Assembly (NCBI GenBank): GCA_021772975.1
Contig: JAJFKY010000022.1
Location: 1-64,000, forward strand
Reading direction: 5' to 3'
DNA from: Gammaproteobacteria bacterium
GTDB lineage: Bacteria > Pseudomonadota > Gammaproteobacteria > Xanthomonadales > Wenzhouxiangellaceae
DNA: 64,000 nucleotides
Part shown: positions 8,514 to 27,050 of the stretch, one piece after another
Numbering within the stretch: position 1 is the first letter of the stretch
How the letters are laid out: each line of letters begins with the position of its first letter
Translations under genes and position numbers: made by a program
The notes under the pieces: generated by a model
What the model was told of the DNA's origin: nothing
The model's database searches: none
What the model saw: only the letters and a program-made list of their open reading frames with translations

Positions 8514-8762
8514 ATGCCAAATAACCGCTGCAACTCGTGTCTATCCGGCCATACTTATGAGATCACCCAACAGTTTCTGTCAGATATCGGGCATGCTGAG
8601 TGCACTGGTATCTATCAGCGCATCATTGATGAAACCGAGATCGGCATGCTGCAGGCAGTGATGGAGCACACTCAGGGCAACCAATCCAAAGCCGCGCAAC
8701 TGCTGGGCATTACCCGCGCCACCCTGCGTCAGCGCCTGGACCGTCATCAATTGCGCGGATAA
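8514..8762 (+). CDS. fis: Fis-family nucleoid protein
   Basis: An 82-residue DNA-binding protein. The C-terminal helix-turn-helix NQSKAAQLLGITRATLRQRL is the Fis/NtrC-type motif, and the preceding helices (IYQRIIDETEIGMLQAVME) match the Fis dimer core. In Pseudomonas and relatives fis directly precedes purH-purD, as here. The usual upstream partner dusB is absent. The N-terminal arm is shorter than in E. coli (98 residues) and carries two Cys. Confidence 0.85.
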   Translation: MPNNRCNSCLSGHTYEITQQFLSDIGHAECTGIYQRIIDETEIGMLQAVMEHTQGNQSKAAQLLGITRATLRQRLDRHQLRG

Positions 8763-8837
8763 AAGTCCTTGCTCAGAGTCGGTTAATTGAATGGGCCGCG
8801 TGGTAAACTTACCCGCTGTTCTCAAACACTCAGCGAT

Positions 8838-10430
8838 ATGCCCGATACCTGTGGTGAGCTTACCATCCAAACCGCTTTATTAAGCGTTTCTGACAAAACC
8901 GGAATAGTCGAACTGGCCCAGGCACTGGCAGCCAGTGGCGTACGCCTGCTCAGCACCGGCGGGACGGCCAGGACCTTGCAGCAGGCAGGCATTGCAGTCA
9001 CCGAGGTCAGCACCGTCACCGGCCAGCCGGAGATTATGGATGGCCGGGTCAAAACCCTGCACCCGGTTATTCACGGCGGCCTGCTGGGGCGCCGGGACCA
9101 GGATGCCCAGGTGATGGATTCCAATGGCATCACCGCCATTGATCTACTGGTGGTTAACCTGTATCCCTTTGCGGATACCATTGCCCGACCAGACTGCAGT
9201 CTGGTCGAGGCGATCGAACAAATCGACATCGGTGGTCCCGCCATGCTGCGCGCCGCCAGCAAGAATCATGCCTGGGTCACGGTGCTCACCGATCCGGCCG
9301 ATTACGCCACTCTCAGTCAACAATTGCCGTCCGCACCTGAACTGAGCATACGCCGGCAACTGGCGCTGAAAGGCTTTCAGATGACGGCCGCTTATGATGC
9401 CATGGTCAGCCACTATCTTGCCGGACAGTTTGGCCCTGCTGATGCTGAGCTGAGCGGGCAATTAAATCTGAACCTGACCCGGCAACAGGCTCTGCGCTAT
9501 GGCGAAAATCCGCAGCAGGCAGCTGCTTTTTACCGTCCGTCCGGACAATCGCCGCAGGGTTTTGCCGCAGCCCGACTGCACCAGGGCAAGCCGCTGTCAT
9601 ATAACAACATGATGGATGCCGACGGTGCCTGGAGTTGTCTGCAGGCCGTCACCACCCAGGCCAGCAGCGCCAATCCGGCCGCCTGTGTGATCGTCAAACA
9701 CGCCAACCCTTGCGGCGCTGCCTGCGGGGAGAATATCAGCGCCGCTTATCAGCGCGCCTTTGACTGTGATTCAACCTCGGCATTCGGCGGCATTATTGCG
9801 CTGAACCAGCGCCTGGATGAAGCTTTCGCCCGGCATTTGATCGGCAATCAGTTTTTGGAAGTTCTGCTGGCGCCGGAGATTGAGCCGGCCGCGCTGAAGG
9901 TCCTGTCCGATAAGCCCAATGTCCGGGTGCTGACCCTGCCGCTGAACCCGCTGCAGCGAAATGACGCGCTTGATTACCGCCGCATAGCCGGCGGTTACCT
10001 GGTGCAGCAACCCGATCTGGATACGGTCGCGCGGGAAGTCATGCAGGTGGTCAGCCAGCGCCCCCCGAGCGAACAGGAATGGCGCGATATGCTATTTGCC
10101 TGGCAACTGGTGCGGTTCGTCAAATCCAACGCCGTGGTATATGCCAAAAACCAGCAGAGCGTGGGCATCGGCGCCGGTCAGATGAGCCGCATCGACAGCG
10201 CCAGGATTGCGCTGGAAAAAGCCGCCCAGGCAAAGCTCACGGTAGCCGGATGCGCGATGGCCTCAGAAGCTTTTTTTCCATTCCGGGACAGCATTGATCA
10301 AGCTCATGCAGCCGCTGTCAGCAGTATCATTCAACCCGGCGGCTCGCGGCGTGACCAGGAAGTGATTGACGCCGCTAACGAACATGACATGGCCATGGTG
10401 TTCACCACCCGGCGGCACTTCCGGCATTAA
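8838..10430 (+). CDS. purH: Bifunctional AICAR transformylase / IMP cyclohydrolase
   Basis: A 530-residue enzyme for the last two steps of IMP synthesis. The N-terminal IMP cyclohydrolase domain begins [15 protein letters not shown] and contains [11 protein letters not shown] and [10 protein letters not shown]. The C-terminal transformylase domain shows [17 protein letters not shown] and STSAFGGI. The frame is open from 8787, but the ATG at 8838 places the conserved start about 10 residues in and is preferred; neither start has a strong ribosome-binding site. It follows fis and precedes purD. Confidence 0.95.
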
Positions 10431-24405: not shown

Positions 24406-24960
24406 TCAGACCTCATCGGTATTACCGAGATATTTGTCCTTCAGGCGGGCATAATGCTGGGCTGAATAATCCAGCATTTCCAACTCTTTGTCGGTCAGAT
24501 CCCGAATCGGCCTGGCCGGCCGGCCAAACCATAGTTGTTTACCGGTTATCTGTTCGCCGGGACTGACCAGACTGCCTGCGCCAAGCATGGCCTGATCACC
24601 GATCACCGCACCATCCAGCACAATTGAACCCATCCCGATCAGGCAACGATCACCGACCGTGCAGGCATGCAGAATGACACCATGTCCGATCGTCACGTAC
24701 TCCCCCACCCGTAACGGGAAGCCACCCGGTGAATACGGACCATCATGGGTAACATGCAGCGTGGAATTATCCTGGATGTTGGTATAGGCGCCCACTGAAA
24801 TATGTTCCAGGTCTCCGCGCAATACGGTGCCGGGCCATACAGACACATCATTGGCCAGCTTGACTTTACCAATCACCGTGGCGCTGGGGTCGACATAGAC
24901 GCGTTCACCCAGCGATGGCTGATGCTCCAGAAAGTTACGAACAGAATAGTACTTAGACAT
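24406..24960 (-). CDS. Gamma-class carbonic anhydrase-like protein (YrdA/PaaY family)
   Basis: A 184-residue left-handed beta-helix protein with hexapeptide repeats (VYVDPSATVIGKV, VSVWPGTVLRGD and similar). The zinc-site pattern is visible: LHVTHD, then IGHGVILHACTVGD with two His. Members hydrate CO2 or act as CoA thioesterases; many cytosolic homologues have no shown activity. Start ATG 24960. It precedes dctM on the same strand. Confidence 0.85.
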   Translation of the reverse strand: MSKYYSVRNFLEHQPSLGERVYVDPSATVIGKVKLANDVSVWPGTVLRGDLEHISVGAYTNIQDNSTLHVTHDGPYSPGGFPLRVGEYVTIGHGVILHACTVGDRCLIGMGSIVLDGAVIGDQAMLGAGSLVSPGEQITGKQLWFGRPARPIRDLTDKELEMLDYSAQHYARLKDKYLGNTDEV

Positions 24961-25289
24961 AATGACAGCTTCTCATCTATTCACAGCACATCGGTTCTGT
25001 AACAAAACAGCTAGTTATTGGCATTTTGTCAAAAACAGTTCCAGAAAAATGCTTTAAGTTATTGATTTATATTAAATATTACAATGATCTTTTTTTAACC
25101 AAATCGTAAAGAAGCCAGCATTTACAATACTTTAAGAAGCTATCGCAAATCTTATCGACAGAGTTATCCACAGCCGGTGTGTATAAGCAAGTGTGTCAGA
25201 CGGGTTATGTCAGGGCCTCCAGACCGCTACAATAACTGACCTTTTTCAGACTGACTAGTCTAACCCATCGCCTGCAACAGGAAGGTACC
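24961..25289. other. AT-rich intergenic region with DnaA-box cluster
   Basis: This 329-base divergent gap lies between the carbonic-anhydrase-like gene and argS. Bases about 25054-25110 are strongly AT-rich. Just after them come two perfect DnaA-box matches and one near match within 35 bases (25152-25186). No gene is visible. It must hold the promoters of both flanking genes. Confidence 0.6.
25152..25186. promoter_or_regulatory. Clustered DnaA-box-like sites
   Basis: TTATCGACA (25152-25160, one mismatch to TTATNCACA), TTATCCACA (25164-25172, perfect) and the reverse complement of TTATACACA (25178-25186, perfect) lie in 35 bases. The two perfect sites face each other. An AT-rich tract adjoins. 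They could be DnaA regulation of argS, a titration site or an origin component. Confidence 0.6.
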
Positions 25290-27050
25290 TTGAAAGAAGT
25301 CATTCATGAGTTGATCAGCCAAGCCCTGCACCGTCTGCGACGCATGGAATTGCTACCGGCTGATATTGATCCGGTTATCAAAATTGAGCACTCGCGCGTG
25401 CCCGAGCACGGTGACTATGCCTGCAATGTGGCCATGATGCTGGCTAAACAGGCCGGTATGCCGCCGATGCAGCTGGCCGAAGCGATCGTCAAGAAGATCC
25501 CGCAATCACGTCATATCGAAGAAATCAATGTTGCCAAACCTGGATTTATCAATGTCCGCCTGAGTAAATCCTGTCTGCTGAGCCTGATCAATGACGTGCT
25601 TGAGGCAGGTGAGTCGTATGGCTGTCAGCAGCCGGACCAACGTCAGCCGGTGACGGTTGAATTTGTCTCCGCCAACCCGACCGGCCCGTTGCATGTCGGC
25701 CATGGCCGTGGCGCTGCCTACGGAGCCAGCCTTTCAGCGCTGCTGGATGCGGCCGGATATGATGTGCACCGCGAATATTATGTCAATGATAATGGCCGGC
25801 AAATGGACATTCTGGCGGTCAGTGTGTGGCTGCGCTACCTGGAGTTGTGTGGAGAAAAAATCGGTTTTCCCGACAACGGCTATCGCGGTGATTATATTTA
25901 TGACATCGCGCGTGCGGTGCGCAGTGATCACGGTGACCGATTACGCCACACTCAGGTCGAAGTCTATGACGGTCTACCGCCTGATGAAGCCCATGGCGGT
26001 GATCGTGAAGCCTTTATTGATGCCTTGATCGCACGCGCCAGAGAGGTACTGGGCAAAGACGGCTTTGCGATCTGTTTTAACGCCGCGCTGGAGAGCATCC
26101 AACAGGATATCAAGGCAGACCTGGAGGATTTCGGGGTCTATTTTGATCGTTGGTTCTCTGAACGGGAACTGGAACAAAGCGGGGCGGTCACCGCGGCTAT
26201 CGAGCAATTAAAACAAACCACCCAGGTCTACACTCAGGATGGCGCACTGTGGTTTCGCGCCACGCATTTCGGTGACGAAAAAGACCGGGTAGTGGTGCGG
26301 GAAAACAGCCGCACCACCTATTTCGCTTCGGATATTGCTTATCTGCGCGACAAACTGGAACGCGGCTTCAAACCGGCTATTTACGTGCTCGGCGCCGATC
26401 ACCATGGCTATGTTTCACGCCTGCGGGCAGCCGCTGAAGGCATGGGTTACAACCCGGATGACCTGGAGATTCTACTGGTCCAGTTTGCCATTCTGTATCG
26501 CGGCGGGCAGCGGGTTCAGATGGGTACCCGCAGTGGTGAATTTGTCACGCTGCGTCAGCTGCGTGAAGAAATCGGCAATGACGCCGCCAGGTTCTTCTAT
26601 GTGCTGCGCTCTCATGAACAGCACATGGACTTTGATCTGGACAAGGCCAAATTACAAAGCAATGACAATCCGATTTATTATATTCAATATGCCCATGCCC
26701 GGATCGCCAGTGTGTTCCGTAACCTGGAACAAAGTGGTGACCGGCACAACCAGGCCATCGGCAGCGCGGCGCATAAATTACTGACCAATGACCACGAGCA
26801 GAAACTGTTGCGCACGCTGAGCCGCTATAAGGAATGCATCATGAATGCCGCCAACAGTCGCTGTCCTCACCAACTGGCGCATTATCTGCATGAGCTGGCA
26901 GGTGATTTCCATACTTACTACAACGCTGAGAAAGCTTTGGTGGATGACGAAAACCTGCGCAACGCACGCTTGAATCTGATGGCGGTCACGGCTCAGATTA
27001 TTCGTAATGGACTGAGCCTGCTGGGTTGCAGTGCTCCCGAGGAAATGTAG
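25290..27050 (+). CDS. argS: Arginyl-tRNA synthetase
   Basis: A 586-residue class I synthetase. The N-terminal Add1 domain (about 1-110) is followed by the HIGH-equivalent HVGHGRG in NPTGPLHVGHGRG, and the KMSK region is replaced by MGTRSGEF, as is common in ArgRS. Conserved YVLGADHHGYVSRL and NDNPIYYIQYAHARI complete the family pattern. It starts with TTG at 25290, chosen because AGGAAGG lies a few bases ahead and the family N-terminus begins there. An FtsN-like gene follows 12 bases later, a linkage seen in many Gammaproteobacteria. Confidence 0.95.
   Translation: MKEVIHELISQALHRLRRMELLPADIDPVIKIEHSRVPEHGDYACNVAMMLAKQAGMPPMQLAEAIVKKIPQSRHIEEINVAKPGFINVRLSKSCLLSLINDVLEAGESYGCQQPDQRQPVTVEFVSANPTGPLHVGHGRGAAYGASLSALLDAAGYDVHREYYVNDNGRQMDILAVSVWLRYLELCGEKIGFPDNGYRGDYIYDIARAVRSDHGDRLRHTQVEVYDGLPPDEAHGGDREAFIDALIARAREVLGKDGFAICFNAALESIQQDIKADLEDFGVYFDRWFSERELEQSGAVTAAIEQLKQTTQVYTQDGALWFRATHFGDEKDRVVVRENSRTTYFASDIAYLRDKLERGFKPAIYVLGADHHGYVSRLRAAAEGMGYNPDDLEILLVQFAILYRGGQRVQMGTRSGEFVTLRQLREEIGNDAARFFYVLRSHEQHMDFDLDKAKLQSNDNPIYYIQYAHARIASVFRNLEQSGDRHNQAIGSAAHKLLTNDHEQKLLRTLSRYKECIMNAANSRCPHQLAHYLHELAGDFHTYYNAEKALVDDENLRNARLNLMAVTAQIIRNGLSLLGCSAPEEM

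Follow-up and report, generated by a model that had tools for sequence, protein, structure and literature searches.

The intergenic region between argS and a yrdA-like gene in a Wenzhouxiangellaceae genome (GCA_021772975.1) holds a tight cluster of DnaA boxes with neither dnaA nor dnaN near it, which raises the question of what a DnaA-responsive module would be doing there. The window, to which all unprefixed coordinates refer, is the whole stretch of 64,000 nucleotides analysed (positions 1 to 64,000 of contig JAJFKY010000022.1, forward strand). A preliminary description of it had recognised a DnaA-box cluster and offered three roles for it, namely replication origin, datA-like titration and control of transcription. 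The cluster has proved real and conserved, but these roles fit its geometry worse than does a DARS, an element promoting ADP release from DnaA. The module and its flanks are laid out as follows, with offsets counted from box III, reading from box I to box III and on.

24406 to 24960, minus strand: YrdA-like gene of the gamma carbonic anhydrase family (166 bits to the best NCBIfam model, whose cut-off is 250), flanking the module
24977 to 24985, plus strand: fourth DnaA box (CTATTCACA) with one mismatch, running parallel to boxes II and III, at +166
25055 to 25067, minus strand: IHF consensus site AATCAATAACTTA, a perfect match to WATCAANNNNTTR, at +84
25086 to 25100, minus strand: weak Fis-like site GGTTAAAAAAAGATC, three mismatches to GNTYAAAWTTTRANC, at +51
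25152 to 25160, plus strand: DnaA box III TTATCGACA, one mismatch, parallel to box II and 3 bp from it
25164 to 25172, plus strand: DnaA box II, perfect, TTATCCACA as read on the plus strand
25178 to 25186, minus strand: DnaA box I TTATACACA, perfect, facing box II across 5 bp
25228 to 25236, plus strand: TACAATAAC, -10-like element of the presumed argS promoter, adjoining the module
25290 to 27050, plus strand: argS, arginine--tRNA ligase (TIGR00456, 441 bits, above cut-off), flanking the module

Boxes I to III are identical in the congener G001. The core they form spans 35 bases (25152-25186) and, on the minus strand from 25186 down to 25152, reads TTATACACA-CCGGC-TGTGGATAA-CTC-TGTCGATAA, which is the box geometry of the E. 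coli DARS elements. Our box search bore out the original claim of two perfect facing boxes and a one-mismatch box within 35 bases; the fourth box, which lies outside the span then described and 16 bp upstream of the yrdA-like gene, also fits the module. The core is intergenic, about 100 bp upstream of argS and away from oriC. The AT-rich DNA reported beside the cluster is there as well (80% AT from 60 to 120 bp beyond box III), and is better read as a tract carrying an IHF consensus and a weaker Fis-like site at conserved distances than as an unwinding element. The argS start at 25290 is a TTG by mechanical ORF call, as it is in the congener (L067). A comparison of the surrounding DNA with a plasmid collection gave short, uninformative matches in four records, in three cases to gamma carbonic anhydrase genes.

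What is improbable about this locus is the arrangement of the boxes, not the density of single ones. The window contains 49 boxes with at most one mismatch where 40.6 are expected, and 12 of 100 shuffles reach that count. With 106 perfect boxes in 3,735,965 bases, a simple estimate gives 0.08 perfect-box pairs within 26 bp per genome, in keeping with the early judgement that two perfect boxes this close are improbable, and for facing pairs at any single given gap it gives 0.0007 per genome. Two facing perfect pairs are in fact present, both with a gap of 5.

Searching relatives by DNA similarity (41 genomes) returned the site itself and the congener alone, because intergenic DNA diverges outside the motifs. 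A pattern search solved this, with TTATNCACA-N5-TGTGGATAA-N3-TGTNNATAA as the motif and up to three mismatches allowed. All 43 family genomes carry it, at 76 sites (28 genomes with two, 13 with one and 2 with more), as do 143 of 151 genomes of the order, 292 of 369 of the class and 217 of 398 of the phylum; conservation in relatives had been put forward as the check on function. The reversed pattern found nothing in the family or the order and one match in the class, in the same genome (G404) as its phylum match. The spacing is equally specific. Changing only the gap from 5 to 6 left a match in 1 of the 151 order genomes, and by hand count 62 of the 68 facing pairs of exact boxes at gaps of 0-20 bp in the family have a gap of 5, the other six having gaps of 2, 3, 12, 13, 13 and 16; the reversed control of this second search matched in one genome. 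The sole gap-6 match (G004:C34:59939-59974) lies in a family genome with just one gap-5 site and perhaps carries one inserted base.

Farther afield, an exact scan of named contigs gave at least 119 stretches. The 80 named loci among the matches listed are nearly all from Gammaproteobacteria in the broad sense, and include Nitrosomonas, Gallionellaceae, Janthinobacterium and Neisseriaceae, together with one bin each from Magnetococcales and Phycisphaerales and two whose name is only Proteobacteria. Within family f193, several genomes (G605, G663, G684, G750, G774 and others) carry exactly two matches per genome, of which one closely resembles E. coli DARS1 and the other DARS2; the remaining f193 genomes have none to three, with none in three very small ones (1.0-1.2 Mb). 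Matches in the phylum outside the class include many genomes of family f217 and some of f221, f225 and f238, while the 93 genomes of six non-class families (f216, f222, f223, f226, f229 and f233) are without the motif by hand count. Genomes of f217 often hold several core matches, up to nine (G455), where one or two are usual.

In E. coli K-12 the motif is found once upstream of uvrB (DARS1), with two mismatches, and once between rppH and mutH (DARS2), with three, and none of 200 shuffles of the uvrB-upstream or rppH-mutH region contained a match. The best matches in the datA region, the oriC region and the 18 kb around the window genome's own dnaA have five, eight and nine mismatches. The uvrB-ybhK gap was considered as the place of DARS1 and rejected, there being no match in it and one upstream of uvrB. 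In the datA region (L202:2733-2767) a pair resembling boxes II and III stands at 3-bp spacing but lacks a facing box I; a relationship with the DARS core is possible. The available text of PMC4585315 gives two published primers that bracket exactly the 35-bp rppH-mutH match as DARS2 boxes I-III, and that of PMC5742627 describes the same box spacing, with box I opposite to II and III, as the core feature shared by DARS1 and DARS2. The argS/yrdA site has these three boxes in this orientation and at this spacing.

The accessory layout here, on the other hand, is best read as unlike that of E. coli DARS2. Both share the orientations and spacings of the three-box core, and both have, on the side of box III and in the same orientation, a match to the IHF consensus, but in DARS2 this match, which we take to be the known IHF site IBS1-2, is at +74, and at the argS/yrdA site it is at +84, about one helical turn further out. 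The Fis-like site lies between core and IHF (+51), whereas the Fis-consensus match of DARS2 lies beyond IHF (+110), so at motif level nothing here corresponds to the DARS2 order in which FBS2-3 follow IHF. DARS2 also has a DnaA box beyond IHF, at +176, which is inverted, unlike the fourth box here. The locus differs too, being argS/yrdA rather than rppH-mutH. DARS1, whose core geometry is the same as here, offers nothing better than an IHF-like sequence at +86 with two mismatches, and is active in vitro without additional factors according to the portion of PMC5742627 available.

The genome carries exactly two copies of the motif, and the second is found here:

G000:C11:4055-4089: second copy of the core, between comEA and an acetyl-CoA hydrolase-like gene, with sbcB beyond

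In this second copy the IHF site (TATCAAATAGTTA, +74) is 10 bp closer to the core than in the argS copy and thus stands at the DARS2 offset, while the Fis-like site is 11 bp closer and the fourth box (TGTGCATAA, +156) 10 bp closer. At +40 the same element (L021:4055-4254) has a near-perfect Fis-like palindrome, GGTCAAAAATTGACC.

Both locations recur in the family. Of its 76 sites 39 were examined, and 17 lie at argS/yrdA, flanked by relatives of the YrdA-like gene in other genomes as well, and 22 in the sbcB/comEA/recR region, with L028 and L030 placed there by sbcB alone and L037 on weaker evidence, an acetyl-CoA hydrolase-like neighbour as in the window's genus. At 30 loci from the order, priA is the neighbour in 11 and argS in 1 (12 of 30 together). 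priA also adjoins 10 of the 80 named loci among the matches listed, in a neighbour search that used fourteen proteins and identified no neighbour for most of them; the Algicola locus (L145) adjoins rppH/mutH, which is the DARS2 locus.

Closed genomes of relatives give positions relative to dnaA. Two argS-type copies lie at distances of 92 and 97 kb, or 0.05 of the half chromosome (E. coli DARS1 is at 0.66 and DARS2 at 0.41), two priA-type copies are 115 and 248 kb away, and three sbcB-type copies are 1.1-1.6 Mb away, at 0.60 to 0.91 of the half chromosome. Overall, the 17 sites in eight closed genomes range from 92 kb to 1.6 Mb from dnaA, and six of the eight combine a copy no more than about 250 kb from dnaA with a distant one. 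Other single-contig genomes agree by subtraction, the nearest site being 84 kb from dnaA (G367).

The accessory motifs hold fixed positions beside the core. Fis and IHF sites were read from consensus motifs and are candidate sites throughout, an IHF match being WATCAANNNNTTR with at most one mismatch on the same strand. Such a match falls at +84 to +86 in 10 of the 17 argS-type sites and at +73 to +75 in 13 of the 22 sbcB-type sites; since the relatives are not independent, these and the following counts of accessory sites are not probabilities. Any IHF match within 260 bp on either strand is found at 13 of the 17 and 21 of the 22 sites, where shuffles lead to an expectation of 4.8 and 6.7, and perfect matches at 3 argS-type and 13 sbcB-type sites against 0.3 and 0.5. 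The 150 bp on the box I side of both types contain no perfect IHF match. Fis-like palindromes cluster at +39 to +41 in sbcB-type sites (17 of 22 Fis-like matches); the argS-type sites have only five Fis-like matches, four of them at +48 to +53, where the looser TTGGTCAA matches 11 times. A parallel box stands at +165 to +170 in 16 of 21 box matches of argS-type sites and at +153 to +158 in 21 of 26 of sbcB-type sites. In other genera, sbcB-type sites (for example L042 and L057) have extra IHF-like sites, at +143 to +147 on the same strand in 14 of 22 and at +194 to +198 on the opposite strand in 13 of 22; at these positions neither was seen in L021 or L066, the two sites from the window's genus.

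The arrangement at argS extends to the more distant matches. Among the 80 named loci listed, IHF is at +83 to +87 in 57 and at +72 to +76 in the Algicola locus only, a Fis-like palindrome is at +48 to +53 in 47 of 103 Fis-like matches, and a parallel box is at +165 to +170 in 34 of 88 box matches. The 30 loci from the order, which were fetched by core match and not by flank, have IHF at +84 to +87 in 27, a Fis-like site at +50 to +52 in 27 and a box at +159 to +172 in 24, although they are not independent because they come from four families (f9 21, f4 7, f6 1, f10 1), 21 of them from one.

The genome encodes candidate proteins for such a module. Its DnaA is 58% identical to that of E. coli, with Arg285, Leu290 and Asp269 conserved, its IHF-alpha and IHF-beta genes score above curated cut-offs, and an Hda-like protein reaches 178 bits, slightly below the cut-off of 194.8. 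A Fis homologue is encoded in the window itself (8514-8762, plus strand; sharing 32% identity with E. coli Fis across 60 residues) and is a likely helper protein for the module. It lies directly upstream of a gene that by eye looks like purH (8787-10430).

Nucleotide exchange on ADP-DnaA is the best-supported function for this site, because the core has the DARS geometry and the IHF site is on the same side as in DARS2, and we consider it likely that the argS/yrdA site is a DARS. Behind this stand the geometry, its conservation, the specificity of the spacing, the fixed positions of the accessory motifs and the presence of genes for DnaA and IHF and of Fis and Hda homologues; the binding of proteins to the site, ADP release, its timing and any looping we infer. 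ADP-DnaA would bind boxes I and II, which face each other across 5 bp, and their AAA+ domains are therefore proposed to meet head to head, the contact that available passages of PMC5742627 and PMC8682772 describe for DnaA on these two boxes. DnaA on box III, together with the head-to-head pair, would loosen the ADP, and the apo-DnaA released would rebind ATP, so that the level of ATP-DnaA would rise ahead of initiation. Bound 84 bp past box III, IHF would bend the DNA, perhaps together with Fis at +51, and the bend would let DnaA on the fourth box at +166 be brought back to the core. The two elements of this genome, at argS/yrdA and on the comEA/sbcB side, would act in this way, the origin-proximal copy presumably like the distant one.

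Several observations count against a DARS. Box III (TTATCGACA) does not fully match the consensus, although the congener has the same sequence. The site's own Fis-like sequence has three mismatches, and Fis-like matches at +48 to +53 are found in few argS-type sites of the family; the IHF match at the main offset is missing from 7 of the 17 argS-type and 9 of the 22 sbcB-type sites. In two closed relatives the argS-type copy is close to dnaA, unlike E. coli DARS1 and DARS2. The low identity of the Fis homologue, the Hda-like score below its cut-off, the place of the Fis match beyond IHF in E. coli DARS2 and the non-independence of the 30 order loci weigh on the same side.

That proximity to dnaA is also what recommends a datA-like site, at which DnaA boxes and IHF would promote ATP hydrolysis on DnaA or soak up DnaA after early duplication near the origin. 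E. coli datA combines DnaA boxes with an IHF site (available text of PMC5742627), as this module does with its IHF site and extra box. The distances of 92 and 97 kb in two relatives would suit an element like datA, which lies at about 0.20 of the half chromosome, nearer to oriC than the DARS sites, and the datA region does hold the pair resembling boxes II and III. Its best match to the whole motif, however, lacks a box I facing at 5 bp, the most fixed feature here, so the box arrangement of the argS/yrdA site is not that of datA, and the sbcB-type copy has the same core at 0.60 to 0.91 of the half chromosome. We consider a datA-like function improbable.

A DnaA-controlled promoter region for argS, yrdA or both would explain why the core and the fourth box lie so close upstream of these genes, and why the -10-like TACAATA beside the core is conserved (in an alignment of the 17 argS-type sites, 85% or more keep TATTGTA, its other strand). 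But the same core with the same flanking distances stands beside quite different genes, among them sbcB/comEA, priA and mutH/rppH, and we rate this explanation lower still. A dual role, with a DARS that also controls argS or yrdA, may apply.

An origin, which boxes adjoining AT-rich DNA might suggest, is contradicted to the point of being negligible: GC skew, read along 504 of the 505 kb of the window's contig (C15), has negative values in 23 of the 24 bins (21 kb each) and no switch at 25 kb, 28 of the 43 family genomes carry exactly two motif copies, and the dnaA-dnaN intergenic region on contig C17 (about 290 bp) is itself AT-rich with two perfect boxes. The doubt about an origin voiced in the preliminary description was thus well placed, as was its remark that dnaA and dnaN are not nearby. 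The skew on C17 (68 kb) is a weak sign in the same direction: it goes from mostly negative to about zero, and its cumulative curve descends as far as about 44 kb, stays level from there and climbs towards the end of the contig. E. coli oriC has TGTGGATAACTCTGTC beside one perfect box, like boxes II and III, and differs from the argS/yrdA site in its eight mismatches and the absence of a facing pair with a 5-bp gap. Motif matches in other species were also considered as oriC and rejected, as the sites in eight closed genomes are far from dnaA and no DnaA or DnaN match occurs in the available flanks of 130 loci, which in many cases extend just 1.5 kb to each side. A chance cluster, for which one could cite the unenriched number of boxes in the window, is already refuted by a motif present in 43 of 43 family and 143 of 151 order genomes and, at the wrong gap, in 1 of 151.

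DARS as a kind of element is already known, because earlier papers and reviews report its conservation among gammaproteobacteria. In the parts of these sources available, the DARS2 core is conserved in gammaproteobacteria related to E. coli (Kasho 2014), a species comparison of 2021 reaches Vibrio cholerae and Shewanella, conservation is extended to E. coli-proximal beta- or gamma-proteobacteria (PMC5742627), and identification in a number of Gammaproteobacteria is credited to Fujimitsu 2009 (PMC4451416). In the partial texts returned by a full-text literature search we saw no DARS upstream of argS or priA, although the species list of Fujimitsu 2009 may be wider, nor the order core, Fis, IHF and further box, the sbcB locus, the +84 offset or a class-wide count.

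A pair of DARS-like elements is carried by many lineages, the window's included. There is an even chance that the ancestral DARS architecture across Gammaproteobacteria in the broad sense (beta lineages included) was a three-box core followed by a Fis-like site (about +51), IHF (about +85) and a fourth, parallel box (about +168), in many cases next to priA or argS, and that E. coli DARS1 and DARS2 are derived or alternative forms; DARS2 would then be a version with IHF one helical turn closer. In the available text of PMC4245941, moving the DARS2 IHF site outward by 10 bp left moderate activity and by 5 bp only partial activity, and moving it inward by 5 or 10 bp also left only partial activity. 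The outcome of the outward 10-bp shift agrees with two natural versions that differ by one helical turn; the inward result agrees less well. With the natural pair at +74 and +84, the helical phasing of IHF against the core can be tested.

DARS was worked out in E. coli, and its conservation has mostly been described, in the literature as available, for species related to E. coli, Vibrio cholerae and Shewanella included. If our reading is true, most of the class has a DnaA-recharging switch, which sits at recurring loci with its helper sites in a fixed layout, and the DnaA recharge cycle would be a class-wide system instead of an E. coli speciality. One could then test whether replication in distant lineages such as methanotrophs and Nitrosomonas is timed by the DnaA-ATP cycle as well as by synthesis or titration of DnaA.
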